Source: a virus. From it: a stretch of 49,691 bases of DNA. The first letter of the stretch is position 1; each line of letters begins with the position of its first letter. Where the stretch lies: positions 1-49,691 of the IMG/VR virus record IMGVR_UViG_3300042554_000720; one strand, given 5' to 3'. Under the pieces are notes generated by a model. That model saw nothing but the letters and a program-made list of their open reading frames with translations, was not told the origin of the DNA and ran no database searches. This document shows positions 3,960 to 49,691 of this stretch, piece by piece. The translations under genes were made by a program, and so were the position numbers.

Positions 3960-4480
3960 GCACCCTCCTCAGCAGCACGACGCTCAGTGTCGCCAGCACT
4001 ATATTCCTCAAACATACGGGCAATGCGGATAACTTCAGCAGCACCTTCATCCAGCGTAGCAAACGCAGTGAAGCCCCCGCCAGTACGGCTCATGTTAACT
4101 ACAAGCTCACGAGCATTGGTCAGGGAGTTCTGTCGGATGATGGAGCGATCCCCGTGCATGAGGGGAACAGGGAACACCTTAGCAGGAGGGCCAAAGCTAC
4201 GAGGAGACGCTACTCCCGCAGAAGGCGCATCCACACTTGCCGTAGGTGTCGTCGCAGCAGCACCGCTACCCTTCGATAGAACCCGCACAGTGGCATCATC
4301 GATTTGCTTGCCATAAGAGCCCTCTTCATACTTGAAGTCAATGGTGTCGCCAACATTGTACTTAGGCTTCTTAAAACCTACGCTGAACCAGTCGCCATTA
4401 GCCTTGATGGAGTAGGCTGGCTTAGGGCCAAACTTGGTTGTGACGGTTTTATTGGTAATTGATTCGACTACATAACTCAT
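3956..4480 (-). CDS. Putative OB-fold single-stranded DNA-binding protein
   Basis: 174 residues. The first 70 read as a five-strand OB-like barrel (TVTTKFGPKPAYSIKANGDWFSVGF, split here as alternating strands, then VGDTIDFKYEEG). A Pro/Ala/Ser linker follows, then a helix with IIRQNSLTNARELV, a pattern seen in phage ssDNA-binding proteins. The tail ends in acidic residues. Between DNA polymerase and exonuclease, where T7-like phages keep gp2.5, it is the best ssDNA-binding candidate. The assignment is from fold impression and position, not a diagnostic motif. Confidence 0.6.
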   Translation of the reverse strand: MSYVVESITNKTVTTKFGPKPAYSIKANGDWFSVGFKKPKYNVGDTIDFKYEEGSYGKQIDDATVRVLSKGSGAAATTPTASVDAPSAGVASPRSFGPPAKVFPVPLMHGDRSIIRQNSLTNARELVVNMSRTGGGFTAFATLDEGAAEVIRIARMFEEYSAGDTERRAAEEGA

Positions 4481-6375
4481 AGCTTTAGTTCCTTCTTATC
4501 TTGCCAGTTGGGGCCAGCCTCTACACCCACTGAGAGGCGGCATGGGAAAGTAACACCTAGATAGGTAGAAATATAATGTGGAGCTTGTTCCAATACCTCC
4601 TTAGCTAACTTGGCTACATTGTACAACACTTCGTTAGTGCAGTCAATGACTACACTGTCATGCACAGTCATCACTAGGTTGGCACTTCCTGCTTGATAGT
4701 AACCCTCTTCTTCCAGCTTGCGCTGCAACAAACCCACCATCATAGGAACCATGTCACCAGTGGCACTACCTTGAATTGGATAGTTCTTTAGTTCTGTGGG
4801 GGAAAACTCCTGCTCTCCGGTGTACTCGGATTGGTAGGAGTTGAAGACATATTTACGTCCCCAGGGCATGACTCGTTCATATTGGTAACGGAGTTGTCCT
4901 TTGTCGTACCAGACGCTACGACCTGCTTTAGCCTCTCTAGTAATGGATTCGTGGTAGCGTTTGACCCCACTGTATCGTCGGTAGAAAGTGTCGATGAACT
5001 TCCTAGCTGTTGTTCTGTCGCATCCACTTTGCGCCATGAGGGTGCTAACACCTCCACCATATACGAGAAGGAACGAAAACCGCTTGAATGGCTTTCGCTC
5101 GGCATCTGTGGGATATCGTCCATACATTTCCTTATAGAGTTCGCGGTGCATGTCGCGTCCGCTGTTAATGTCGTCCTGCAATACCTTGTCGTCGGCAATG
5201 TAGGCAAGCCACACCATTTCTAGTTGGCTGTAGTCGAGTTCTAGAATGGAGCCGTTAACACCGTGCCTACTAATAAACGCCCTCTTTACGTCACCAACAT
5301 CAGTTTGATTTTGTAGGTTTGGTTGTGTGGCTGACAAGCGGCCGGTGGATGTTGACACATGGTTGAGGTTTGGGTAGAGGAAGTTGTCAGGGAAACGTAG
5401 GTCTAGCAGACCCTGGTAGTAGGTGTCCCTTACTTTATGGTAAGTGCGTAGGTCGCTTACAGCACCAGCTACGCGATCACTGTGTGTGTCGTAAAGTTTA
5501 GTAAGTGTGTCGTCATCTACGCTGTAATAGCCGTTCTTACCGAGAGTTAGGCCGTAGTTTTCAGCAGTGTATAGCCCGTCTTGAATTACCTCCTTCTCTA
5601 CATTCTTGAACTTAGGGCGCCCATTCTTAAAGAAGCCTACTTGCTCCCTCTCAACTACCTTACGCTTACCACCAAAGAAATAGAGAGATAGTTCTTTAGG
5701 AGACTTGTAATCTAGGTCTGGCTTAAATAGTTCAATTTCACGTTTAGCTAGTTCGATGAAAGATGTGAAGACTTCAATTTGTTTCTCTACATAAACCCAA
5801 TCTACAGCCATACCGTGTAGGGCCATAGCTGTAGTGGCACGCAAAGCGTCCATTTGCGTATGGACCCAACTCTCAATACCTCGGTGTTTCACCTCGGCCC
5901 ACTGCTTTAGGAACACTTCCTTCGTATTAGTAACGTCCCCCTTCAGGTAGGCGGACAGTTCGGCTTCTGGAATGTCCTCAGTGTCTGTACCCTTGTCCCA
6001 ATAGGCTTTAATGGCATCGTCTTTAACGGCGTGAGCACCAACATACTTAGTGGTGAGTTCGTTCAGGGAAGCATACTTACTCTGCTGCCCTGTGAGTAAA
6101 TATTCTGCAAGCTGCGTGTCCCACACAGAAGGGAGGACATCATTCTTGCGGTAGCGGTAGGTGTAGAGAAGGTCAAACTTAGCGTTTTGTGCGATGAAAA
6201 GCGTGTCTTCTTTTGTTGTCAGTGGCCTAGCTAGCTCGTTGTACGGAGTTGAGTGGTCAATGATGGACAAGCCAGCCAACACCACCTTGTTAGCAGGCCA
6301 CATTGGGTGGGCCTTGTTATTACCAATAGGACACTTAACACTAGTCTCGTAGTCAACTACTACGGCTGTCATCAT
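4477..6375 (-). CDS. Family A DNA polymerase with 3'-5' exonuclease
   Basis: 632 residues, the replicative polymerase. Proofreading motifs are intact: Exo I D8-Y-E10, Exo II N64AKFD68, Exo III Y143LKGD147. Polymerase motif A is ELDYSQLE (D381). Motif B fits R427-x3-K431-x3-F435-x3-Y439-G. Motif C is VHDSV (H572-D573). The residue at the ddNTP-discrimination position of motif B is Phe (F435), as in E. coli Pol I rather than Tyr as in T7. AGGAGA precedes the start. No 5' nuclease domain, as usual for T7-like polymerases; the Cas4-like enzyme downstream may supply that activity. Confidence 0.97.
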   Translation of the reverse strand: MMTAVVVDYETSVKCPIGNNKAHPMWPANKVVLAGLSIIDHSTPYNELARPLTTKEDTLFIAQNAKFDLLYTYRYRKNDVLPSVWDTQLAEYLLTGQQSKYASLNELTTKYVGAHAVKDDAIKAYWDKGTDTEDIPEAELSAYLKGDVTNTKEVFLKQWAEVKHRGIESWVHTQMDALRATTAMALHGMAVDWVYVEKQIEVFTSFIELAKREIELFKPDLDYKSPKELSLYFFGGKRKVVEREQVGFFKNGRPKFKNVEKEVIQDGLYTAENYGLTLGKNGYYSVDDDTLTKLYDTHSDRVAGAVSDLRTYHKVRDTYYQGLLDLRFPDNFLYPNLNHVSTSTGRLSATQPNLQNQTDVGDVKRAFISRHGVNGSILELDYSQLEMVWLAYIADDKVLQDDINSGRDMHRELYKEMYGRYPTDAERKPFKRFSFLLVYGGGVSTLMAQSGCDRTTARKFIDTFYRRYSGVKRYHESITREAKAGRSVWYDKGQLRYQYERVMPWGRKYVFNSYQSEYTGEQEFSPTELKNYPIQGSATGDMVPMMVGLLQRKLEEEGYYQAGSANLVMTVHDSVVIDCTNEVLYNVAKLAKEVLEQAPHYISTYLGVTFPCRLSVGVEAGPNWQDKKELKL

Positions 6376-6741: not shown

Positions 6742-6935
6742 AGCTCCTCCAACTTAAACTTTGACCAGTCTGGTTCTGAGTCATCGTTCTGATACTTGTA
6801 AATGATTGGTGACTTAAGACCGTCTGATATGCTAATCCACACAGACCCTAAGGAGTTCACCACTACAACATATCGTACACTTGCTCTATTACAACTATAC
6901 CACCCAGAAGGGGGTCTACTTGATTTTACTGACAT
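6738..6935 (-). CDS. Small beta-rich hypothetical protein
   Basis: 65 residues from ATG 6935, chosen because AAGG lies 6 nt upstream and it overlaps the helicase stop by only 20 nt; a longer frame to 7010 would run inside the helicase. The centre alternates hydrophobic strands (VRYVVVVNSLGSVWISIS). This resembles the small beta-barrel-like proteins encoded at 8166-10049. Acidic C-terminus. No known function. Confidence 0.6.
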   Translation of the reverse strand: MSVKSSRPPSGWYSCNRASVRYVVVVNSLGSVWISISDGLKSPIIYKYQNDDSEPDWSKFKLEEL

Positions 6936-8169
6936 ATCGTGCCTTACTTGGCTCAATGGACACTTCAAACATGCCGTGTCGGAACACCTCGTCCGACCCA
7001 GCACCACCAAACAACTTGTTCTTAGGGATGTGGATGAAACGGTCTAAGTCCATCCCTGGCTCATTACTCTTACCAATAGTGATGATGGCGTCTGCCTCAC
7101 CTACCTTGTCAGTCTTAGAGCCGCGCAGTTGGTTCATATGAATCCACTTCTCACCCTCACCAGTGCCATCTACTTGACTGACAGCGATGATTGGACAATA
7201 GCGTTTGGCAACTCGTCGCGCCCACTCATACAGTTTACCAATGCGCAAGTCTTCGCGGTCATTGTTGAATCCCTCTACCTTGTCGAGTTGGTCGAAGATG
7301 ATGAGGCCCGGCTTGTACTTGTCAAATAGGGCGTCAAGTTTGTGAGCACTTTTGATGGGAGAGTCATCATCAAGGATAAGAAAACGATCCCCACCAGCAC
7401 TAACCCACGATGCTTCATACTTGGCTGTATCTTTAAGGAGTTCACTACTAGTAACTTGGTGATGGGCCTGGATGGCGCGCATCATCACCTTAGCTGAAGC
7501 CTCCTCGTTGTTAATCCAAATGACATGCTCGTCTTTTTCTAGCTGACTCAGCATGAAGGTGGCTTCACTGGCAACACACGTTGTCTTACCTGTCTCAGGG
7601 CGGGCAGCTAGGATGATGAAGTCGCCCTTACGCAGTGGGCCTAGTGCTAATTGAAATTCCTTTAGCCGCCAGTTGAGGCCCTTACCAGATACCACGCGGC
7701 TAACATACTCAAGAGAAGGACTGACAAATACTTCATCATGCTTTGTTGCTGCACCAACTTCTCGATCATACTCATCCAGAAAGCCACGAATATTAGTAAT
7801 AGATTTACCAGGGGTTCCCACGCTGAGGCCCAGCGTTTCATTGTAGATGCGAGTCGCATAGTCTAGCTCCACTAGTTTACTGATAAGGGGTGCGGTGAGG
7901 TGTGTTGGAACGTGCGTCTTTAGATTGGTGAATAGAGTGTCATAGTCCCCAATGTTCTTCATCTTCCTTCCCTTCACAATGAAGAAGAAGGTGCGGAGAG
8001 TGTCCCAATCTACGGCAGTGTGTGTGGGGTAGTTGTCCCAATAGGTAGAGAGAACATCCCAAACATCGTGCGTTAGTGTGCCTACATTGTGTTTCTTAAC
8101 AACATCTTTAAATCGTAGGTAGGCTGCCTTGTCTTTACAAGCGTGCAGCAAATCTAGATCATAGCTCAT
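6916..8169 (-). CDS. DnaB-like replicative DNA helicase (RecA fold)
   Basis: 417 residues. Walker A at 190-197 reads RPETGKTT. Walker B is GLIIFDQ with D293. The sensor-like stretch AVSQVDG and the RGS/ADAIITIG segment are typical of DnaB/gp4 helicases. The N-terminal 150 residues lack a primase or zinc domain; primase is a separate gene at 8800-9609. The protein should form a hexameric 5'-3' helicase at the fork. Coupled by 4 nt to the upstream ORF. Confidence 0.93.
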   Translation of the reverse strand: MSYDLDLLHACKDKAAYLRFKDVVKKHNVGTLTHDVWDVLSTYWDNYPTHTAVDWDTLRTFFFIVKGRKMKNIGDYDTLFTNLKTHVPTHLTAPLISKLVELDYATRIYNETLGLSVGTPGKSITNIRGFLDEYDREVGAATKHDEVFVSPSLEYVSRVVSGKGLNWRLKEFQLALGPLRKGDFIILAARPETGKTTCVASEATFMLSQLEKDEHVIWINNEEASAKVMMRAIQAHHQVTSSELLKDTAKYEASWVSAGGDRFLILDDDSPIKSAHKLDALFDKYKPGLIIFDQLDKVEGFNNDREDLRIGKLYEWARRVAKRYCPIIAVSQVDGTGEGEKWIHMNQLRGSKTDKVGEADAIITIGKSNEPGMDLDRFIHIPKNKLFGGAGSDEVFRHGMFEVSIEPSKARYVSKIK

Positions 8170-8601: not shown

Positions 8602-8807
8602 TTGTCTGGAATGTAGAAGTAGTTACCAATAATGGTGGCACTGCCATTTTCTAAAGCGTGTAGAGAGCTATCTGCATACACCGTGAGAGCACGCCCATCG
8701 TCGGCATCTAGGGAAAGTAGTTTGAATTCCCCGGTGGCAGCGTCGAATACAACTAAGTACGACGATGTACTAACTTTCCACCTTACAATGTCGCCTAGTT
8801 TAACCAT
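8598..8807 (-). CDS. Small beta-barrel-like hypothetical protein (paralogue 3)
   Basis: 69 residues from ATG 8807 with GAGG 6 nt upstream and an 8-nt overlap with the primase stop. The opening MVKLGDIVRWKVS and ending GNYFYIPDK fit the paralogous small-barrel pattern. A longer frame to 8867 lies inside the primase gene and was not used. No function known. Confidence 0.65.
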   Translation of the reverse strand: MVKLGDIVRWKVSTSSYLVVFDAATGEFKLLSLDADDGRALTVYADSSLHALENGSATIIGNYFYIPDK

Positions 8808-9609
8808 TGAATGCCTCACAAAGTGATGTAAGTTCCACGTAAGGAACCTCTTTAGGTTGTCTGTCAAATACAGCGTTTAGTTTGTGCGGGAACAACGCAG
8901 TCATTTCCTTGATGAACTTAGCTGCACCTACATGCCCCGCTGTGTCGTTGTCAAGCCACACCACCACTTGCTTAGGGTTAGTTAGTTCAGCAGGCCACGC
9001 ACCCTTGAGGGAAGTTCCAAGTAGTGCCACCACACTATAGCCCAAACTCCAAATCTTGTAGGAGGACAGCAAATCCTCTACAACAAACACAACATCGGGG
9101 TGTTCCTTACCAATAAGGTAGTGGTAGTATGTATAGGGCCTAACTCGTGTCGAGTATTTTACGGTGCCATTAAAGTAGCGCCGTTGAAATCCACGCAGTG
9201 CGTCACCATTATACACAGCAATTTGTAGATGGCCGCCTGAAGCACCAAACACTGCTGGAAACTCGTCAGGGTCAATTTCGTAGTGCAGCAGCCATAACGT
9301 GGCTTCTTCAGGTAGGTGTTTAGTGGAACGAAACATCTTGTCAAAGCCGCCTTCCAGCGTATCTGGAGGACGTGTTGTTATAGGTGACCAATGCTCACTG
9401 TTCCTAAAGTGACCACTACCACCGCAGTTGAAGCACTTGTATAGGTAGGCACCTCCCTTATTGATAACGTAGAGGCGCCGCTTCCTATCTACACCGGCAG
9501 GGCATGTGGCGTGGTTGTACTTCTCTTCATTGCCTACAGGCAACGAAGTCCAATCTACACCATTAGCTTCTAACTCTACCCTGGCATCCTTACCGAATTT
9601 CTTTTCCAT
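8800..9609 (-). CDS. DNA primase, zinc-binding and TOPRIM domains
   Basis: 269 residues. N-terminal zinc ligands: H33/C36 and C59-x2-C62 with H67 (KCFNCGGSGHF). A TOPRIM core follows: VVEDLLSS supplies the conserved Glu and VVWLDNDTAG the DxD. It resembles the primase half of T7 gp4, but here helicase is a separate protein, so this is a stand-alone primase that makes primers for lagging-strand synthesis. The C-terminal 30 residues may contact the helicase. Confidence 0.9.
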   Translation of the reverse strand: MEKKFGKDARVELEANGVDWTSLPVGNEEKYNHATCPAGVDRKRRLYVINKGGAYLYKCFNCGGSGHFRNSEHWSPITTRPPDTLEGGFDKMFRSTKHLPEEATLWLLHYEIDPDEFPAVFGASGGHLQIAVYNGDALRGFQRRYFNGTVKYSTRVRPYTYYHYLIGKEHPDVVFVVEDLLSSYKIWSLGYSVVALLGTSLKGAWPAELTNPKQVVVWLDNDTAGHVGAAKFIKEMTALFPHKLNAVFDRQPKEVPYVELTSLCEAFNG

Positions 9610-10704: not shown

Positions 10705-11838
10705 TTAAAACACCTTCTTGTAGAACTCCATGACGCTAACCTTGTCATCCTCGTTCAGCTTCTGAACAAAGGCAACGCTAAAGCCGTCTTGGATGCCATA
10801 GCGCTGCATCTTGCGACCCCAGTTGATGAGGGTACGCGGACTCATGGTGAGGCCCAGCTTGCCGCTGTTGTAGGCATTCCGCACCATCGTAGCGAGCTTC
10901 ACCATGTTGGCAGCAACTTCCTTGGGAGCGCCAGTCTTACCAGTAATGATGGCAATCTCGTGCTTGGCATCAAGATAGGTCAGATGCACAGTGGAAGTGA
11001 AGCGGTCAATGGTGGCCGTGTTCTGGACACCTACGCCAGTGAATGCACCACTCGTATCGCCCTGGCCCACCGTGTTACCGGCGAACACCAGCCGGAAATT
11101 GTCAGCAGGCGTCACAGTCCGTTCCTCGGACGTACCCGGCTTCTCCTTCAGGTAGAGATAGCCGCCATCTTCCAACAGGTTCTGCATACCCATTGCAATC
11201 TCAGCAGGCATCAGTTCCCACTCGTCAACAAGGCACACAGCACCACTCTTGCAAGCCTCGGTGATGGCACCGTCGCGCCAGATGGTAGCGCCACCTTCCA
11301 CCACAAGAGTGCCGAACAGTGCCGAACTCTCCACATCACCACTCATGTTGATGCGGATGAAGGGCCAGTTCAGCTTGGCGCACACATACTTCACCAGCGA
11401 ACTCTTACCGCTACCAGTTGGGCCGGTGATGAGGGACTTATCGCCGTCCATGATGCCAGCAACCAGCACAGCAGCTTCTTCCTTCTGCACCACGTAGTCG
11501 GGGTCAACAGACGGCACCATGCGCTGCACGTCAGGGGACAGGCCAGACAACACCTTCACACCAAAGTCGCCAAACTTCGGAGTGTAGCCAAACACCTTGG
11601 AAAAAGGAACTTCGTCCTTACCAATAACAAACACCTTCTTAACTTCAAGGATCGGCTCTGCGACAGGAGCAGCAGGAATAGAAGCAGCCGAGCCCTTGTT
11701 CAGTTGGGCCTTGAGGTTCTTGATGAGTTCGCTCGAAACGTCGGTGGTCATAGTGGTTCCTGATGAAGAGAATGATTTAGTACGGACAGAGTGTTTGATG
11801 GAGGCACTATAGCCCGTTTCCCAGGGCTTAGTTTTCAT
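10705..11838 (-). CDS. CobS-like / MoxR-type AAA+ ATPase
   Basis: 377 residues if started at ATG 11838, which overlaps the VWA gene's stop by 4 nt. ATG 11751 (348 residues) has a better ribosome site (AGGA, 6 nt) and may be the true start. Walker A is G139PTGSGKSS; Walker B VCLVDE (D205, E206); sensor 1 GNT near 255; a likely arginine finger in IDRF (R279). This is the MoxR/CobS clade. Such ATPases work with a VWA protein, here the next gene upstream, to remodel a metal-bound partner. CobS proper needs CobN and CobT for cobalt insertion; CobN is absent, so the target is unknown. Confidence 0.85.
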   Translation of the reverse strand: MKTKPWETGYSASIKHSVRTKSFSSSGTTMTTDVSSELIKNLKAQLNKGSAASIPAAPVAEPILEVKKVFVIGKDEVPFSKVFGYTPKFGDFGVKVLSGLSPDVQRMVPSVDPDYVVQKEEAAVLVAGIMDGDKSLITGPTGSGKSSLVKYVCAKLNWPFIRINMSGDVESSALFGTLVVEGGATIWRDGAITEACKSGAVCLVDEWELMPAEIAMGMQNLLEDGGYLYLKEKPGTSEERTVTPADNFRLVFAGNTVGQGDTSGAFTGVGVQNTATIDRFTSTVHLTYLDAKHEIAIITGKTGAPKEVAANMVKLATMVRNAYNSGKLGLTMSPRTLINWGRKMQRYGIQDGFSVAFVQKLNEDDKVSVMEFYKKVF

Positions 11839-13574
11839 AGCGCCTTATCAATAATGGACAGAATTGCAGGGGCTAGGGCATTAGTGTCGTGAATAACTAC
11901 GTTGTTCTTGTAGTACCTCTTAACGTTGGTGTCCATAATGCCAATGCCGTAGAGTTCAACTAGTTTCTTGTCTTCAATGGAGGTAGTCACTTTCTTGGTG
12001 TACGAGGAAATGTCGCCTGCCCACGAGCGGCCCGCAGGGGAACCATCACTGAGCACGATGAGGATTTTACGCTTCTCCTTTCGGGGAACAAGGTAGTTGT
12101 GCGCCCAAGCCACAGCGTCGCCGTCGCTGTTGTTCCACAGCGCACTAGAGGCAACGCCAAACCGCTTGACAAGCTCGGATTGTGTCACATTCTCTTGCCA
12201 ATCATTGAACACCCACACAATGGGGTCTTCGTTCCTTTCACAATCGTTGGTGAAACCCAGCACATTGTAGGAAATGTGCAGTGGCTTGAGGGCGAGGGCC
12301 AGTGCAGCAGCAGATGCACACGCAGTTTCAAACTTACTGCCCGACATAGACCCTGAACAGTCTACTAGTAAACTTACCGCCGTGTCCAGGGTGTCGCTCG
12401 TGACATGGCGACGAAATACGCGGGATTCTGCCTCAGTGCCTCTCGCAGACACCAATCGGTGAAGAGAACCAGTGTGCAGCTTACCAGATTTTGTACCATA
12501 TTCATACCTTCCTTTGCTACGTACTTGCAGCTTGATGCGCAGCTTGTTGGACAGAGGCTTTGCGTTATCGTCAATGACGGAGTTAACCCGGCCAGTGTTG
12601 AAGTAGCCAATGCCACCACCACCCGGGACACTGCCCTTCAGCGGCCAGCGAAACACCTTGTAATCGCGGGCAGCAGGGACAGAGTAGGAGCCTCGGCCCA
12701 CATCGTGCTTCCAATGAATGCCAGTGCGGGAGGGCTTGAAGTGATCGGCACCCATTTCCTTAGCCAAAGCATCAACAGTGATGAGTCGATCCTTACTGTC
12801 AGTGCCTTCAGCTTCGCCGTCTTTGCCTTCACTGTCTCCTTCGCCTTCGCCCTTACCCTCTCCCTTGTCAGTGCCCTTGCCTTTGCCTTTTCCTCCTTTA
12901 TCTCCAGGCTTCTGCTGATATTTCGCAGCATCTTCGCCGTAAATGTCAGTAAGGATGTCCTTAGCCAATGCCAGCAAATCGTCAGTGGCGCCATTGTCAC
13001 TGGTGCGCAGAGCTTCCAGGCGAGTGCCATAGTTGCCTGCCATCAGCTTTTTATAGCGTTCCTTACCAATAAGGTCCAACATATCGCGGCTGAACTTACC
13101 AGTGTTGGTCCACTCGCCGATCCAGGCGCGGTGCTCACTCTCCCATGCAAACAACGGAGCCAGCAGCTTTTGGTCTTCGCTGGCAGCTCCAGTGAGGCTT
13201 TGCAGCTTCTTCAGGTAGACACCAGCAAACTCATTGGATAACCGAACATCGCCAGCAAACTCGCTGTCGTTCAGGTAGTCGATGCGGTTGTCTTCCAGAA
13301 GGTTGCAGATGTAGTGCAGCAACCCTTGGCACCCTTGTTCGTGCCACCAGTCAAACTGGGTGTGGACGACGTGACTCGTCTCGTGCTTGACGAAGTAGCG
13401 CAGGTTCGTCAGGTAGTCGGGCGTGTCCTTACTGGTAATGTGTGGAAGGTGTAGAGTTTTGCCATCGGTACGCGGCACAGACCCTGCTTCGTCCCACTGC
13501 ACCTTGACGCCACATCGCGCAGCGCAAGCGTGAACGTAGGCGTCAAAGTGGATGGTATCTAGGTATGTTGTCAC
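11835..13574 (-). CDS. CobT-like VWA-domain protein with N-terminal HExxH metallopeptidase-like domain
   Basis: 579 residues from a GTG start. Residues 64-68 are HETSH, followed at 91-99 by NLLEDNRID, an arrangement like a gluzincin zinc site. A Gly/Lys/Glu low-complexity linker spans about 222-262. The C-terminal VWA domain has the MIDAS motif D405-C-S407-G-S409. Together with the following MoxR/CobS-like ATPase it forms an ATPase/VWA pair; family knowledge says such pairs act as chaperones for metal insertion or complex activation. Whether it cleaves protein is untested. Confidence 0.85.
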   Translation of the reverse strand: MTTYLDTIHFDAYVHACAARCGVKVQWDEAGSVPRTDGKTLHLPHITSKDTPDYLTNLRYFVKHETSHVVHTQFDWWHEQGCQGLLHYICNLLEDNRIDYLNDSEFAGDVRLSNEFAGVYLKKLQSLTGAASEDQKLLAPLFAWESEHRAWIGEWTNTGKFSRDMLDLIGKERYKKLMAGNYGTRLEALRTSDNGATDDLLALAKDILTDIYGEDAAKYQQKPGDKGGKGKGKGTDKGEGKGEGEGDSEGKDGEAEGTDSKDRLITVDALAKEMGADHFKPSRTGIHWKHDVGRGSYSVPAARDYKVFRWPLKGSVPGGGGIGYFNTGRVNSVIDDNAKPLSNKLRIKLQVRSKGRYEYGTKSGKLHTGSLHRLVSARGTEAESRVFRRHVTSDTLDTAVSLLVDCSGSMSGSKFETACASAAALALALKPLHISYNVLGFTNDCERNEDPIVWVFNDWQENVTQSELVKRFGVASSALWNNSDGDAVAWAHNYLVPRKEKRKILIVLSDGSPAGRSWAGDISSYTKKVTTSIEDKKLVELYGIGIMDTNVKRYYKNNVVIHDTNALAPAILSIIDKAL

Positions 13575-15675: not shown

Positions 15676-15689
15676 TAGGGTAAACCCTA
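15676..15689. promoter_or_regulatory. Palindromic operator candidate A
   Basis: TAGGGTAAACCCTA, a perfect TAGGG-N4-CCCTA palindrome just upstream of BoxA on the leftward strand. Related sites occur at 16116 and 16586. Could bind a phage or host regulator. Confidence 0.4.
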
Positions 15690-15878: not shown

Positions 15879-16085
15879 ATGGGATGAACTATGGTCTTCA
15901 ATCCTTACATGAGCCTTACACCATTGTAAAGAAACGTGAAGTCAAAAATAGTGAGCACTCACTCACTTATGCAGGCGCGACGCGCGATTGTCTAGACCGC
16001 GCGTAATGCGTGCGTGCATGCGATTACCAGGGCGACACAGACCATGTCCATAGGTGGAAACCCGTATACTATGTTAGCAGACACT

Positions 16086-16114
16086 CACTAATGACCCTAC
16101 ACAGTGTGTGTCAA
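16086..16114 (-). promoter_or_regulatory. Candidate leftward (early) promoter
   Basis: A consensus -35 TTGACA (complement of 16109-16114) lies next to operator candidate B. The -10 at 16-17 nt (ATTAGT or TTAGTG) is poor, so the promoter would need an activator, or the true -10 is elsewhere. It is the only full-consensus -35 seen upstream of the leftward unit. Confidence 0.3.
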
Positions 16115-16115
16115 C

Positions 16116-16127
16116 TAGGGAATACCC
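16116..16127. promoter_or_regulatory. Operator candidate B
   Basis: TAGGGAATACCC. Its exact reverse complement, GGGTATTCCCTA, is found at 16586-16597, so the two form a 12-bp inverted pair spanning the origin-like region. It touches the -35 of the leftward promoter candidate. Confidence 0.45.
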
Positions 16128-16146
16128 GTCTTTGTAACAAAATGTG

Positions 16147-16223
16147 TTGTCCACAGGATGTGGACACTTTGTGGATAACTTCAGTTTTACCTATGGAGGG
16201 AGCTGTTGATAACTTGTGAATAG
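16147..16223. other. DnaA-box cluster, candidate replication origin
   Basis: Five DnaA-box-like 9-mers: TTGTCCACA (16147-16155), TGTGGACAC (16159-16167), TGTGGATAA (16170-16178, exact complement of TTATCCACA), TGTTGATAA (16204-16212) and TGTGAATAG (16215-16223). The last four point the same way; starts 16159/16170 and 16204/16215 are 11 bp apart, one helical turn. The first two form the inverted repeat TGTCCACA-GGA-TGTGGACA. An AT-rich tract follows at 16471-16612. Together this resembles a DnaA-dependent origin. Confidence 0.6.
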
Positions 16224-16351
16224 TTCATAGTGGCCGGGAAAACTTTCTTCTAGAGTAAGGGTAGCTTGACCATGAAAAACGGCGCTACGGCCCTTCTAGG
16301 CCCCTCGGTGAGCCTGCGCCATGTTGGTGCATACGTCCCCTAGTGCGTATC

Positions 16352-16366
16352 TGAGAATGATTCTCG
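16352..16366. promoter_or_regulatory. Fur-box-like motif 1
   Basis: TGAGAATGATTCTCG fits the 7-1-7 Fur inverted repeat (TGATAATnATTATCA) with the C/G variants common in betaproteobacteria and pseudomonads. Inner 13 bases are a perfect GAGAAT-G-ATTCTC repeat. Confidence 0.5.
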
Positions 16367-16405
16367 TTTAGTTGGCACGTATCTTGCAGCGTAGCTGAAC
16401 ACAAG

Positions 16406-16420
16406 TGAGAATGATTTGCA
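16406..16420. promoter_or_regulatory. Fur-box-like motif 2
   Basis: TGAGAATGATTTGCA: first half identical to motif 1, second half reads ATTTGCA as in extended Fur sites. It lies 54 bp from motif 1, about five helical turns, on the same side of the DNA. Confidence 0.45.
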
Positions 16421-16454
16421 TTACCAATAACAACGGCTCGGCCGCATACATCCC

Positions 16455-16470
16455 TTTATCAATTGATAAA
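16455..16470. repeat. 16-bp perfect palindrome
   Basis: TTTATCAATTGATAAA, perfectly symmetrical, at the edge of the AT-rich tract. Could be a regulator site or a duplex-opening feature of the origin. Confidence 0.5.
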
Positions 16471-16540
16471 CTATTCATATACATACATATAGTTATATAT
16501 ATACATATACAATATATAGCTGGGGGTAGTTATATGTATA

Positions 16541-16570
16541 TTAACAGATGTTATAACATATATATATACT
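16541..16570 (+). promoter_or_regulatory. Sigma70-type rightward promoter
   Basis: -35 TTAACA (5/6), 18-bp spacer, -10 TATACT (5/6). Transcription would start near 16577, just before operator candidate C at 16586-16597, so binding there could block it. It reads toward the late genes. Confidence 0.5.
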
Positions 16571-16585
16571 ATAGTATACTAATAA

Positions 16586-16597
16586 GGGTATTCCCTA
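16586..16597. promoter_or_regulatory. Operator candidate C
   Basis: GGGTATTCCCTA, reverse complement of operator candidate B, located about 10 bp into the transcript of the promoter at 16541-16570. Confidence 0.45.
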
Positions 16598-16627
16598 TCT
16601 CAGATATACATATTGGCTGAATGCGAC

Positions 16628-16642: not shown

Positions 16643-16658
16643 ACTAAGGCACCCACCC

Positions 16659-16678
16659 CACCCCAGGGGGCAGGGGGT
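16659..16678. repeat. C-run/G-run hairpin
   Basis: CCCC-A-CCCC followed closely by GGGGG-CA-GGGGG. It can fold into a strong GC hairpin or, on one strand, supply G-tracts for a quadruplex. No T-tract follows. Beyond it to 16890 are only repeated CGTTT(T)AAA-type words near 16810, 16830 and 16890. Confidence 0.4.
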
Positions 16679-16891
16679 AAGGTATTTGTTTGCACTAACC
16701 CTTAAAAATCCCTCACAGAAATTCGTACACCTAGACTCTTTTACTAACTTCTTGGCTTCACAGCCTCAAGGTGTACCCACCCACCCTCCGCTGAATATCC
16801 CGTAAAGACGTTTTAAAGCCCCTAGAAGGCGTTTTTAAAGGCGGGTCGCTACCCAGGTAGCTTCACAGGCTTGTCCTGCCCTTAAAACTCG

Positions 16892-16982: not shown

Positions 16983-17057
16983 GCAGGCGAGGAAGACGGT
17001 AATCCGCTGGCCTCATAAGCCAGAGACACTTGGTTCAACTCCAAGGCACTGCAACCA
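16983..17057 (+). tRNA. tRNA-Met(CAT)-like element, possibly degenerate
   Basis: A perfect 5-bp anticodon stem CTGGC-CTCATAA-GCCAG with CAT anticodon, a 5-nt variable loop, and a perfect T arm CTTGG-TTCAACT-CCAAG, then GCACTGCAA and CCA at 17055-17057. The 5' part is poor: only 4 of 7 acceptor pairs form (GCAG/CTGC) and the D arm is irregular and 2 nt short. It may be an unusual functional tRNA, a pseudo-tRNA or a tRNA-like leader processed by host RNases. It ends 13 nt before the first late gene. Confidence 0.5.
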
Positions 17058-17070
17058 ACAACAAACACCC

Positions 17071-18846
17071 ATGTCAAAGCTCACATTAAATTCCATTGGA
17101 AGTCGTTATGGCAGCGTAGATGCGCTGAATGACAACTTTGACGCCATTGAACAGGCGTTCAACAACACCCTAAGCCGTGATGGTGATGGGCCAAATTTCA
17201 TGGAAGCAGATTTTGACATGAATGGCAAGGCCATCCTTAATGCTGCTTCTCTGGAGGTTTCCACCCTCACACTGGGTGGTGTAGAAGTAATCCCCTCTTC
17301 AGTGGTAACCATTCCAGCTTCAGTGGTGACGTTTGAATTCACAGCCACTGCTGGTCAAACCTCCTTTTCTATTTCCCCCTACACTCCCATTGCGTCAGCA
17401 GTTACGGTGGAAGTAAATGGCATTGTGCTGCGCACCAGTTCCATCAGTGTTACAGGTACAACCCTTAGTTTTCCAGCCTTAGCTCTAAGCGACCAAGTAC
17501 AAGTGCGTGTACACACCAGGGCGTTTACTTCCATTCCAACAGCAGGGGATATTTTTTACACTGCATCTGGTGCTGGCGGTGTTGCCCGCAGTGTGCAATC
17601 TAAGCTGGCAGACGTTTACAACGCAAAAGACTACGGCTACAAAACAGACGGCACTGACATGGGGCCGGTGATGAATGCGTTGATTCAAATTGTCGGCGAT
17701 GCTGGTGGGGGCATCATTGATGTACCAGCAGGAGCAGCCCTCATTGCCACAACGGTGGACAACAACCGAGCCCGCGTGCTAATCCGCGGCGCCGGCACGA
17801 ACACGTTCCACGACGAGCCTCCCGATACTGGAGGCACTTTGTGGTATACACTAGCACCAATCGTTCTAGCCAAACACCGCACACCTTATGGCGGCCCATT
17901 GGCACAAAAAAACACTGGCGGCGGTTTTGTCGGCATCACTATGTCAGGCAACAACGTAGGCACTTGTGCATTGGAATGTGACACTGTTTCGGAGTTCACC
18001 CACGAGCTAACTATGTTAGACTTCGCAGGGATTCCTATGGTGTTTAAGTGTGGCGTGACGGGAGTAGACTTAGGTGAGGCTTGTGATGTACAACACGGCG
18101 TACAACGCCTGTACATCCGCCAGAGGTTTGGCGCCGCAGCAAACATTGACGCTGTTTACCACGGTGGCAGCACTAATGCCAACGTGAGTTTGTGTGACTT
18201 ACGCTATGTTATTCAACACTTTAATGGCAATGGGGTTGACTTTGCCAGTAGTGACAATAATGACATTTGGCTGTTAACCTACGCCGGGGGTGGCACTGGT
18301 AAGGCTGCAATCCATCGCGGCACGTCCAACATTGTTCTACCATATTCGCGTGGCAACCGCTTCCACCTCGTGAGTGGCGACAGCCCAATGGTTTTTGAAG
18401 GGACTGACACACCTGGGGTGACCGTTCCGAGCAACGGCCACATTCACATGCTGGACTTTGAAAACAGCACTCCGTTTCCGACTCTTGGCACAGGATGTGT
18501 GGTCCCGGTGATGGGCGCTAACGGGGTGCTTTACGGCACCGCGCATACAAAGGTGCCGATTGCTGACACAGCCGGCAACGCCATTAATGCACGCAATCGT
18601 TTAGGCACGGAAGCAGTCCGTGTTTACAGCACTTCCTCTAATCACGCTGTTCTTGACGATGGAGTGAACGTATGGGGTGTATCCATTGATTCAGGAACGG
18701 GTGACCTCCGTATGGTGAGGGCAGCAGGTTCAGGCGCAGTGAATGTAGGCAATGGTGCCCCTGTAAAAATCGGAAATAAACTCGTTACCGAAGGCAACGC
18801 AGACAGCGGAGGCACTGGGTTTAGAGTGCTGCGAGTTTCAAACTGA
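17071..18846 (+). CDS. Tail spike/fibre with virion-anchoring N-terminus and beta-helix
   Basis: 591 residues. The N-terminal 70 (LNDNFDAIEQAFNNTLSRDG then MEADFDMNGKAILN) is the podophage tail-fibre anchoring type. Residues about 80-165 form a beta-rich linker. The start of a right-handed beta-helix follows (YNAKDYGYKTDGTD, then GGGIIDVPAG), as in pectate-lyase-fold spikes that cut host polysaccharide. No catalytic residues can be assigned. It is the first late gene, an unusual place for an adhesin in T7-like genomes. Confidence 0.85.
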   Translation: MSKLTLNSIGSRYGSVDALNDNFDAIEQAFNNTLSRDGDGPNFMEADFDMNGKAILNAASLEVSTLTLGGVEVIPSSVVTIPASVVTFEFTATAGQTSFSISPYTPIASAVTVEVNGIVLRTSSISVTGTTLSFPALALSDQVQVRVHTRAFTSIPTAGDIFYTASGAGGVARSVQSKLADVYNAKDYGYKTDGTDMGPVMNALIQIVGDAGGGIIDVPAGAALIATTVDNNRARVLIRGAGTNTFHDEPPDTGGTLWYTLAPIVLAKHRTPYGGPLAQKNTGGGFVGITMSGNNVGTCALECDTVSEFTHELTMLDFAGIPMVFKCGVTGVDLGEACDVQHGVQRLYIRQRFGAAANIDAVYHGGSTNANVSLCDLRYVIQHFNGNGVDFASSDNNDIWLLTYAGGGTGKAAIHRGTSNIVLPYSRGNRFHLVSGDSPMVFEGTDTPGVTVPSNGHIHMLDFENSTPFPTLGTGCVVPVMGANGVLYGTAHTKVPIADTAGNAINARNRLGTEAVRVYSTSSNHAVLDDGVNVWGVSIDSGTGDLRMVRAAGSGAVNVGNGAPVKIGNKLVTEGNADSGGTGFRVLRVSN

Positions 18847-35554: not shown

Positions 35555-38500
35555 GTGGAAATTTCCCTCATTGACGGCTACGACCCTGATAACTACGTTA
35601 CGCCAGTAGCTGGCAGCTACGCACAACGTCCTGGCCCAAATCCTACCCTCTCCCTTCTTACTGGTAAGGATACGCAGGTACTAGGGCCTGCATTCGTTGC
35701 GTTTGAAGAGGCACAGAAAGCCCGTGCTGAATCCGTAGCTTTGTGGAAAAGTGCTGCCAACGCTGAGGCTGTAGGTGGCAACATCAATGCTGTAGCGATG
35801 GCTGCACAAGAGATTACTTCCCTACAGCAACCCAACAACAGCTACTTCGACAATGTGACAGCCATTGCCGAACAGAAGGCTGAAACACTGGCTGCCCTTT
35901 CGGCACAGACCGGGATGCAGCCCAATGAGTTGGTTCGCACTGTACGTCTTCACAGCCGCAACATGGCTGTACGTAGTGCGCTGGAAGCCTCCATTGCTGC
36001 TTTGCCAGAGCGTGGATTCCTCACACAACTAGCGCAAGATGTCACTGGTATCACCACTGCCATTGATTGGGGTCGTATTTCTCCAACTCTAAACGAGGAG
36101 TTTAAGAAGTTTGGTGTAACGCCTTCTCTGACCACTATTGGTAGCGCTGAAGACTTCTTCACCATATTGGCTGGTATGGATAGTGACGATGATGCTAAGA
36201 AGTTCATCAGTCACATTACAGATGTACTTGTTGACAGCAACACCATTCCACTAGAAAGCAGTCGTAAGTTCTTTGAAACGATGGTGGACCTCACTAATCG
36301 ATCTAAGGGCCTAGAAGGGGTGTTTGGGGGCCTAGACGTACTAGGGGTAGGGCTGCTCCTCAAAGCAGGCGCTACGGGCGTTTTAAAGGCTTCTAGAGGC
36401 ATTGCTGCTGCCAGGGCTGTGGGTGCTCATGAAGCCGTGGTGCAAGATGTGGTGAATGTCCTTACTAAAGAAGGTAAGACTTCCTTAGAAACCAGTCAAG
36501 TAGATGCACTGAAAGCCTCCCTGTCTACGGCCACCGATGGGTTGGCTGGCCTATCTCCGTCTGTACAAAAGGCACTTACTTCCCGCATTCTAGCTACTAA
36601 AGAAGCATTAGAGAACACTCTCTACACTGGAGGTGCTACGGCACCAGAACTAGCCGCGTCTAAGCGGATGTATGAACTTACCTATAGCCGACAGCGCAAT
36701 AGTGCTATTTTGGAAAGCAATGTGGAGGTAGATGTTAATAAGGGCCGCATTACGTTGGACACCCTGTACGTCCATCGTGACGGCACTCCGTTTGCCACCG
36801 CAGAAGATGCACTAGAGTATGGAAAGAAGTGGGTTGTCGGTGAACTCAGTGTAGTTCCCATTGCAGGTGAAGTGGCAGACATCGCAGCTAAGATGGGCGA
36901 CTTGTCTAGCCGCGCCAACACCCTCCTCACTGAAATTAGTGCTCTGTCTAAGGAGACGCGGAAGGCTGGTGTACGTTGGGCTGAAGACATTGGTAATCTA
37001 GAGCGCCCCACTAGTGAAGCCATTGCTGACGTTTGGAACAAGGTGAAGACAGGTCAACCTTTGTCCGAAGGCTTTGAAACCACTGTAGGTAAACTAGTTA
37101 GTAAGGCCGCTTCTGTGGAAGAAGCTCTGTTGGCTGTACAACGTAGTGTACCAGCACAAATTGGTGTAAAGCTACGTGAACTAGAGAATGTAGTGTCTGA
37201 GAAAGTATCTCTTACAATGGGGCCTAAGCGCCCTGGGTATGCGCTACGCCAGAAGGCGGACATGCCTGTACTACTGGAGAGTCTTGGTAAATACAGCCAA
37301 GATGAAATTGATTCCCTACACCTCACTGCTGGCCGCCTAAATCCTCGTCTAGCCACCGTTACCTCCATCTACACTCCTGCTCTTATGTCTTCGCTGAAGA
37401 AGCATAAGTATAGCAGAGCCTGGGCGGAAGAGGTTAGCCAAGCGTTTGACAAACTTAGCGGCAATTCAATTGACCGCGTTAACGACGCCCTCATTCAAAC
37501 AGAAGCTCTAAAGCGGGACATGACTCCTGCTGAACTTGCTGTAGCTCACATTAAGACGGAAGCAGAGCAAGAAGCCTACTACGCCTATCGCAAGATGCGT
37601 GATGCACAATGGGCAGCTAAGAATGAAGAGGCTCGTCTAGCCCTCACGTCTATGGGCTATAGGAATGTTTTCTCTGACGTGGGAGATTTGGGTACGTTTA
37701 GTGGTCCTGCTCGTCGTGTAGATGAGTGGGAACAGTTTTATGGAAAACGCCTTTACGACGCTGAGAACAACACTTTTTCTATTCTTACTGAAGAAAACAT
37801 CCACAAGTTCAAAGCTCGTGGACTAACTCTATACGACTACGCTAAAGCACAAGAGGTGCCCAACCATAAAAGCGTAGCTACTAAGGTAATGCTTCCTACT
37901 AATAAGACTACAGTAGGTGACGTAAAAAGCGTTGTAGGCCGCGTAGACGGCTCCTATAGCCGCATCTACATGGAAGAATATTTCATCAAGATGAAGGGGA
38001 ATCTGGTAGTTGACGGAGAACTAACAGATGTAAAGTATGCCTTCCGCACTGCTGCCACTGAAGCTGATGCTGCTGACTACGTACAGCGGTTTAACCAACT
38101 TATCCGTATGGGTAGGGTGGAACCAGAAGATGTGCGCCGCATCATGGGTGGGTATGAAGAGGACGCTGAAGCACTGGCTAGAGCCGTTAATGACGGCAAA
38201 TATGCCAACATGGAAGCTGCCTTTAACTATACCCGCATGGACGACAACTTCTTCCGTGATGTAACAGGCATTGGTTCCAGCGACCGATCAGGTGGCCGCA
38301 CTTTCTGGAGTGGGCGCAGTGAAGAGGGCATTCGCTCTATCTCTACTGGTAGCCGAGACACTGTAACAGCAGGGCCGTTGGCCTCTCTAGAACGTGAGAT
38401 TGGCAACACCGCCATGTTTGCTGCTATGGATGAGTGGCGTCGTAATGCCATCCAGAAGTGGTATAACACGTTTGAAGATGTTATCTCCCCCACTGATAAG

Positions 38501-49279: not shown

Positions 49280-49691
49280 TTACAAGTGCTCCATAGCTAA
49301 TTGGAAATAGTCGTTTCACTTCCTTACTAATAAGGGAAGCAACCTCTCGTGTCTCAAGTTGAGTGCCATTACCAGTACGCAGTTTTACAAAGTGCAGCCA
49401 GCTTCGCAAAGTACCGTTCATGTACATGCGGCTCATCGTAAGACCCTCAGGCAGTACAGCACGCGCCACTTCTTTAGCAATGCCGCTATCCAGTGCCCAT
49501 TTGTACAGACGCAAGGCATCTTGCCGCAACACATCTTGTTGGTACGCCCACTTCTCTGCAAGATCAGAGTCTACGCAGGGAAGACTACTCTGCCTGTTTT
49601 TAGTATCTTGTAAACGGGCATCACGAATAGGGGCTGCGGGTAGTTTATCAATACTGGCGTATCTTTGGCTAAACTCTTGGAAGGTAAAGCT
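49272..49691 (-). CDS. thyX: ThyX, C-terminal part (continues the gene cut at position 1)
   Basis: The last 140 codons as displayed; bases 49565-49691 duplicate 1-127, so the non-redundant part is 49272-49564. The C-terminal conserved region is present: AKEVARAVLPEGLTMSRMY, then NGTLRSWLHFVKLRTGNGTQ and ETREVA, which carry the folate- and FAD-contacting arginines. Together with the part at 1-358 the gene encodes 216 residues. Confidence 0.92.
   Translation of the reverse strand, partial: SFTFQEFSQRYASIDKLPAAPIRDARLQDTKNRQSSLPCVDSDLAEKWAYQQDVLRQDALRLYKWALDSGIAKEVARAVLPEGLTMSRMYMNGTLRSWLHFVKLRTGNGTQLETREVASLISKEVKRLFPISYGALVNG
49565..49691. repeat. 127-bp exact repeat of positions 1-127 (assembly overlap)
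   Basis: The last 127 bases equal the first 127. The reading frame of thyX continues through it, and 127 is a common assembler k-mer length. This marks a circular contig rather than a biological terminal repeat; true ends cannot be told from this. Confidence 0.85.

Follow-up and report, generated by a model that had tools for sequence, protein, structure and literature searches.

A conserved and recurrent DnaA-box array in the noncoding region of a cobavirus-like phage, a plausible site for host-DnaA-assisted replication

How do phages of the T7 supergroup that carry no RNA polymerase of their own start to replicate? The matter appears open in two papers on the family, one on Klebsiella Zobellviridae (PMC9960094) and one on cobaviruses (PMC6775973), and a search of both texts for the term found no mention of DnaA. 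In the literature searched, most subscription papers lying outside it, there was no report of DnaA-box phage origins, or of DnaA boxes together with Fur boxes, for Zobellviridae or cobaviruses. A DnaA-box origin has been proposed in silico in an account of phage PseuGes_254 (PMC11512268). Here we describe an array of DnaA boxes in an environmental phage genome; being conserved and recurrent, it offers a precise and small (77 bp) target for asking how such phages replicate.

Genome organisation and affiliation

The window, meaning the whole stretch of DNA analysed, is the 49,691-base virus record IMGVR_UViG_3300042554_000720, which originates from environmental DNA and represents a bacterial virus. 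Its two ends carry an exact 127-base repeat (1-127 = 49565-49691). As 127 is a common assembler word size, the repeat is probably an assembler overlap and not a biological terminal repeat, and what was recorded is in all likelihood a circularised assembly with arbitrary ends. Two divergent arms of genes are separated by a noncoding stretch of about 15.68 to 17.07 kb. The leftward arm encodes CobT, CobS, a Toprim primase, a DnaB-type helicase, a family-A polymerase and a Cas4-type exonuclease, with a ribonucleotide reductase beyond the joined ends of the record. The genes to which we refer are as follows:

4477-6375, PolA (family-A polymerase), leftward replication arm
6916-8169, DnaB-type helicase, leftward replication arm
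8800-9609, Toprim primase, leftward replication arm
10705-11838, CobS, leftward replication arm
11835-13574, minus strand, CobT-like gene, leftward replication arm
17071-18846, plus strand, tail-fibre gene, opening the rightward structural arm

The initial annotation had remarked that the genome has no T7-type RNA polymerase, and this was borne out: PF00940 was not found in the window, with T7 itself positive as a control, so that the phage single-subunit RNA polymerase by which a T7-type transcription-primed origin would be recognised is missing. Nor was PF00940 found in ICP2 (Zobellviridae) or ICBM1 (Cobavirinae), both of which share the two-arm plan. A search of the window for DnaA itself (PF08299) was likewise negative, 10 of 14 control genomes being positive. 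Judged by its gene set (PolA, DnaB-type helicase, primase, CobS/CobT and a structural arm that begins with the fibre gene, without a T7-type RNA polymerase) the phage is Zobellviridae/cobavirus-like. Divergent arms around a long noncoding region, together with PolA, are shared with Zobellviridae (ICP2, VpV262, CVT22) and Cobavirinae (ICBM1, SIO1), and ICP2 also has CobS/CobT and the DnaB-type helicase. A CobT query of viral contigs returned no match. As to the host, alignment of the fibre against genome contigs gave no relative, and the sole match from the polymerase alignment, to Aquisediminimonas, was distant (30% identity) and was not adopted as a clue.

A DnaA-box array between the gene arms

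Five DnaA-type 9-mers, one of them an exact TTATCCACA, lie within the 77 bp from 16147 to 16223, largely as the initial annotation had reported:

16147-16155, plus strand, DnaA box 1, TTGTCCACA (counterpart in the nearest relative, L068: TTATCCACA)
16159-16167, minus strand, DnaA-like box 2, GTGTCCACA (in L068: CTATTCACA)
16170-16178, minus strand, DnaA box 3, exact TTATCCACA (same in L068)
16204-16212, minus strand, DnaA box 4, TTATCAACA (in L068: TTATCCCCA)
16215-16223, minus strand, DnaA-like box 5, CTATTCACA (same in L068)

Box 3 is the sole exact TTATCCACA in the window genome. The 11-bp phasing that had been described holds for two pairs of starts (16159/16170 and 16204/16215) and does not extend to the first box, which starts at 16147 rather than 16148, 12 bp before the second, and is the only one of the five on the plus strand. 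A promoter scan found no sigma70-like sites overlapping the array.

Window-wide, the number of 9-mers with up to two mismatches is at chance level (150 observed, 142.5 by chance). When the whole genome was shuffled by dinucleotides (n = 200), the best count in any 77 bp was 2 in 50 shuffles, 3 in 134, 4 in 15 and 5 in one. With one of the 200 shuffles matching it, the cluster alone is suggestive and not conclusive. A plasmid-derived origin was rejected, the stretch 16100-16470 matching nothing in 72,556 plasmid records.

Conservation of the array and recurrence in relatives

In the noncoding region the nearest relative is L068, with 1054 aligned bases at about 76% identity. All five box positions are in register, with no insertions or deletions between boxes. 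Six of the 45 box bases differ between the two phages, yet the window agrees with the consensus at 39/45 bases and L068 at 40/45; substitutions that preserve the consensus match are what is expected under selection for DnaA binding. In seven other loci, with 442,820 positions scored, the five-box template reached 27 at most.

Further relatives came from searches of viral contigs, the polymerase query giving 36 loci and the fibre query 54. Counts use the 35 of the 54 fibre loci with at least 959 bp upstream (19 were dropped), which clustering at 80% identity reduced to 25 relatives and the window, the latter being excluded from counts. Three of the 25 (L116, L118, L119) were retained despite having little or no noncoding DNA in common with the others. 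Within the 1.6 kb that precede the fibre gene, 11 exact boxes were found in 6 of the 25 dereplicated relatives (L068, L081, L082, L094, L100 and L105; the L100 representative has one, and two other members of its cluster have two each), whereas shuffling gave a mean of 0.47 and never reached 11 in 1000 shuffles. None of 300 permuted words reached that number either, the largest count being 8. In the remaining 211,532 bases of the same loci, exact boxes numbered 2. L081, L082, L092, L101 and L102 have exact boxes paired at 11 bp, although such pairs are not rare among viral contigs generally, where at least 120 stretches have them.

The noncoding region of the other 19 of the 25 relatives contains no exact box. 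Ten named phage records (including ICP2, ICBM1, VpV262, CVT22 and 172P1; not all are placed in the family) differ from the window in having no DnaA-box cluster: each has 0-2 exact boxes, unclustered, and the numbers are similar to those of the reversed control word. On these two results a family-wide origin of this kind was rejected. On a tree of the fibre (59 columns, 30 rows) the box label is scattered, with 7 changes, at least 3 of them forced by well-supported branches; the tree is weak, 5 of its 25 inner branches being starred. Near-matches TTATACACA in L071, L086, L096, L111 and others were set aside as boxes because L061 shows them within the -10-like sequence of promoter-type modules (TGTAAG modules, below).

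The array is real and conserved, conservation in L068 and recurrence together making the cluster convincing. Two of the features by which we sought to recognise an origin were thus found: a cluster of boxes that includes at least one consensus box and, as far as L068 and the 6 of 25 relatives can indicate, a box arrangement under selection.

The AT-rich tract and the genome end

The noncoding DNA to the right of the array has the following features:

16455-16612, AT-rich tract, GC 0.22 (0.223 from 16456), with an equivalent tract in relatives
16650-16724, G-rich block plus conserved TTGCAC..AAAAATCCCTCACAGAAATT block, located where an ICBM1-type terminal repeat would end

An AT-rich tract with a 16-bp palindrome had been annotated as following the boxes. 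Both are real, the exact palindrome TTTATCAATTGATAAA (16455-16470) opening the tract, but in the window a gap of 232 bp, with 50% GC, lies between the boxes and the tract. The tract is common to relatives with and without exact boxes, and the lowest 100-bp GC was 0.07-0.20 in 9 of the 10 relatives' stretches examined (the window and the incomplete L062 excluded). Its relation to the boxes varies. In L100, L101, L102, L104 and L108 the boxes adjoin the AT-rich tract and the flanking 60 bp on each side are 17-32% GC; the boxes of L081, L082, L092 and L094 have no AT-rich DNA next to them. In several relatives a GGGGGTA element is embedded in the tract.

In relatives a G-rich block is followed by a conserved TTGCAC..AAAA..CTCA.A.AAATT block. 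The terminal repeats of ICBM1 are 172 bp long, as established from PacBio reads in the cobavirus paper (PMC6775973). A G-rich word, AAGGGGGGTNNGGGGG, is present in both ICBM1 terminal-repeat copies, at 307-322 in CVT22 and in the regions of 11 of the 25 relatives, with none in the reversed controls. The G-rich block of the window resembles that of the ICBM1 direct terminal repeat, as does its position beside the tail-fibre end, and it aligns with the block of the relatives, but it fails the strict AAGGGGGGTNNGGGGG word; allowing one mismatch, the window has a single match, at 36315, outside the block, and circular assembly hides the ends. Among the contigs of the 54 relatives, 17 break off no more than 620 bp leftward of the fibre gene, compared with 1 that does so no more than 620 bp rightward of the match. 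We infer that the physical genome end may lie in the AT-rich/G-rich region, though low-complexity DNA could be another cause of broken contigs there. The AT-rich tract is more likely to be part of the genome end than of the array. Since the tract is found in relatives that have no boxes, adjoins an ICBM1-like G-rich block and lies on the side from which four of the five boxes point away, it is probably not simply the unwinding partner of the array, the role in which it had initially been cast.

Noncoding DNA that precedes the fibre gene (16650-16850 in the window) holds conserved blocks, which were also seen in L067, L069, L079, L087, L098, L106 and L117. They comprise the G-rich block, TTGCAC..AAAACTATCTCA and CCCACCCACCC, with GGGGGTAGGTAAGGGGGTAG also in several relatives, and are possibly a packaging or leader signal.

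Other regulator-like sites

Sites resembling those of other host regulators, along with a recurrent palindrome, surround the array:

15904-15920, minus strand, TGTAAG-N5-TGTAAG direct repeat, early-gene side
16118-16127, GGG[AT]4CCC palindrome, GGGAATACCC, with further copies at 15678 and 16586
16352-16365, Fur-like palindrome TGAGAATGATTCTC
16373-16388, plus strand, sigma54-like -24/-12 promoter TGGCACGTATCTTGCA, an exact match, kept in L068 and present in L058 with a changed spacer
16405-16422, second Fur-like site, imperfect in the window and perfect in L068
16620-16640, third Fur-like site AATGCGACTCATTCTCATTTG

The TGTAAG-N5-TGTAAG repeat recurs in relatives, with 30 sites in 11 of the 25 representatives (0.02 expected). 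Direct repeats of 11 bp are of the kind used by OmpR/PhoB-type regulators. In L061 there are, by eye, four TGTAAG modules, and 9 bases beyond each of them comes a -10-like hexamer directed toward the early genes; the modules resemble putative response-regulator (PhoB/OmpR-type) promoters. Modules were also seen in L096, L113 and others, up to four per phage. A looser sigma54-like word occurs in 5 of the 25 representatives (0.04 expected), and sigma54-like matches were also noted in L100, L109 and L112. In VpV262 a tandem row of three, spaced at 41 bp, stands next to the terminal repeat (L130 173-270), the expectation in this case being for a pattern picked after the sequence had been viewed.

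Fur-like GAGAATNATTCTC or a close form was found in 4 of the 25 representatives (0.01 expected); such palindromes were seen in the window, L068, L099, L101, L102 and L103. In L101 and L102 roughly 20 bp separate this site from the DnaA pair. L100 and L104 carry GATAATGCCTTATC where L101 and L102 have GAGAATNATTCTC, meaning that both halves of the palindrome have changed together. The sequence TGAGAATGATTCTCA is listed as an E. faecalis Fur site in PMC6056675. The GGG[AT]4CCC palindrome, often AGGGTAAACCCT, occurs in 8 of the 25 representatives (0.69 by shuffling), namely L068, L070, L072, L081, L082, L094, L105 and L112. It accompanies exact DnaA boxes in 5 of 6 cases and is found in 3 of the 19 relatives without them (Fisher p = 0.0055, post hoc and with kinship ignored).

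Replication start and alternative roles of the array

Use of host DnaA, on which the initial annotation had supposed the phage to rely, is well supported by the conservation and recurrence of the boxes, and the phage has neither a T7-type RNA polymerase nor a DnaA of its own. In our reading the array would be a host-DnaA binding site under selection and would serve, most probably, to initiate phage replication, or to assist its initiation, from the noncoding region between the arms; we consider this about as probable as all else taken together. DnaA-assisted initiation is the leading explanation, and an origin role is plausible, its chances being roughly equal either way. The data suggest that related viruses with similar sites may also borrow host DnaA, most likely to start DNA copying. 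On this model host DnaA-ATP would fill the array, cooperating across the head-to-tail boxes 11 bp apart, and the DNA would melt nearby. Host DnaB and/or the phage DnaB-type helicase, with the primase, would then enter, phage PolA would copy the genome, and cleavage at terminal repeats, presumably situated within the AT-rich/G-rich stretch rightward of the array, would process the concatemers.

Counting for an origin are the apparent selection on the boxes, the recurrence of exact boxes and 11-bp pairs in relatives, the scatter of the box label over the fibre tree, the absence of a T7-type RNA polymerase to prime replication and of a DnaA gene, the presence of phage replication genes, the lack of an overlapping sigma70-like site, and the five relatives (L100, L101, L102, L104 and L108) whose boxes are flanked left and right by AT-rich DNA. 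Counting against it are the 19 of 25 relatives without an exact box, the ten named records without a cluster, the tract lying about 230 bp off in the window and the four relatives (L081, L082, L092, L094) with no AT-rich neighbour. Geometry also bears on the question. Four of the five boxes, being on the minus strand, point left, while the AT-rich tract lies to the right; the arrangement of R1 and the unwinding element in E. coli is opposite to this. In a review covering E. coli and B. subtilis the unwinding element sits beside the DnaA region, with no direction stated in the passages on it (PMC13220808). The GC-skew minimum (17915) and maximum (45796) of the window fall close to where the gene arms diverge and converge, so that the direction of transcription also switches there, and skew was rejected as proof of an origin because transcription of both arms leads outward from a single region.

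DnaA boxes are a feature of oriC-type and iteron-plasmid origins, such as E. coli oriC, those of RK2, F and pSC101, and oriR of phage P1. The array resembles these in its clustered consensus and weaker boxes, its 11-bp head-to-tail steps, its noncoding location and the AT-rich DNA nearby. It differs from them in that the tract is about 230 bp off, on the side from which most boxes point away, and in that no iterons or initiator were identified in the phage, which encodes its own helicase, primase and PolA. DnaA boxes are also clustered at datA and DARS, the DnaA-control loci of E. coli; these likewise hold several boxes in a short stretch, but the window array is located in a phage.

Among the other roles considered, DnaA might act as a transcription regulator, the array tuning divergent early and structural promoters and coupling phage expression to the host DnaA-ATP level. 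The region is indeed a divergent promoter region, where recurrent TGTAAG modules face the early genes and a sigma54-like promoter lies rightward of the array at a distance of 150 bp, and the boxes of L081, L082, L092 and L094 manage without an AT-rich neighbour. However, no sigma70-like site overlaps the array, some 230 bp separate it from the nearest TGTAAG module on the left, and relatives differ in where their boxes stand with respect to the promoters; we consider this role unlikely. A broader proposal, that the noncoding region is a sensing hub of host-regulator sites (DnaA, Fur-like, sigma54-like and response-regulator-like) through which a lytic phage would read the replication and nutrient state of its host before committing, or would draw regulators off the host as copies rise, seems more doubtful still. 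Titration, in which rising phage copies would pull DnaA off host oriC, as a datA-like sink, and so stop host initiation, is favoured by the several boxes, one of them strong, per genome copy, and by the relatives that retain boxes without adjacent AT-rich DNA. A strict spacing kept across 77 bp demands more than box number, though, and the window has only one exact box, which leaves this a distinctly improbable role.

It is slightly less probable again that the region is a packaging terminus with promoters, the boxes being minor and the true origin elsewhere. The AT-rich and G-rich blocks of box-less relatives, the G-rich word in both ICBM1 terminal-repeat copies and the excess of contig ends to the left of the fibre gene (17 of 54 relatives, against 1 of 54 to the right of the match) all accord with a terminus. 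Contig ends may, however, reflect low-complexity DNA, and the conservation and recurrence of the DnaA boxes would be left unexplained. A chance cluster, to which the chance-level total of near-matches would lend itself, is contradicted by conservation in L068 and by recurrence among relatives, and is very improbable indeed.

Minor features of the noncoding region

A direct repeat is present on the early-gene side of the array (15951-15971 and 16073-16093), the first copy of which contains the palindrome GTGAGCACTCAC; in L059, L060 and L063 similar sites border the AT-rich tract. When the whole noncoding region was compared with phages by blastn, tRNA matches only were returned. A tRNA-like feature lies just before the tail-fibre gene:

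16983-17053, plus strand, tRNA-like gene (Rfam tRNA, 39.9 bits)

It has a CAT anticodon loop, was missed by ARAGORN, and is identical in L068, compared with 76% identity for the region overall.
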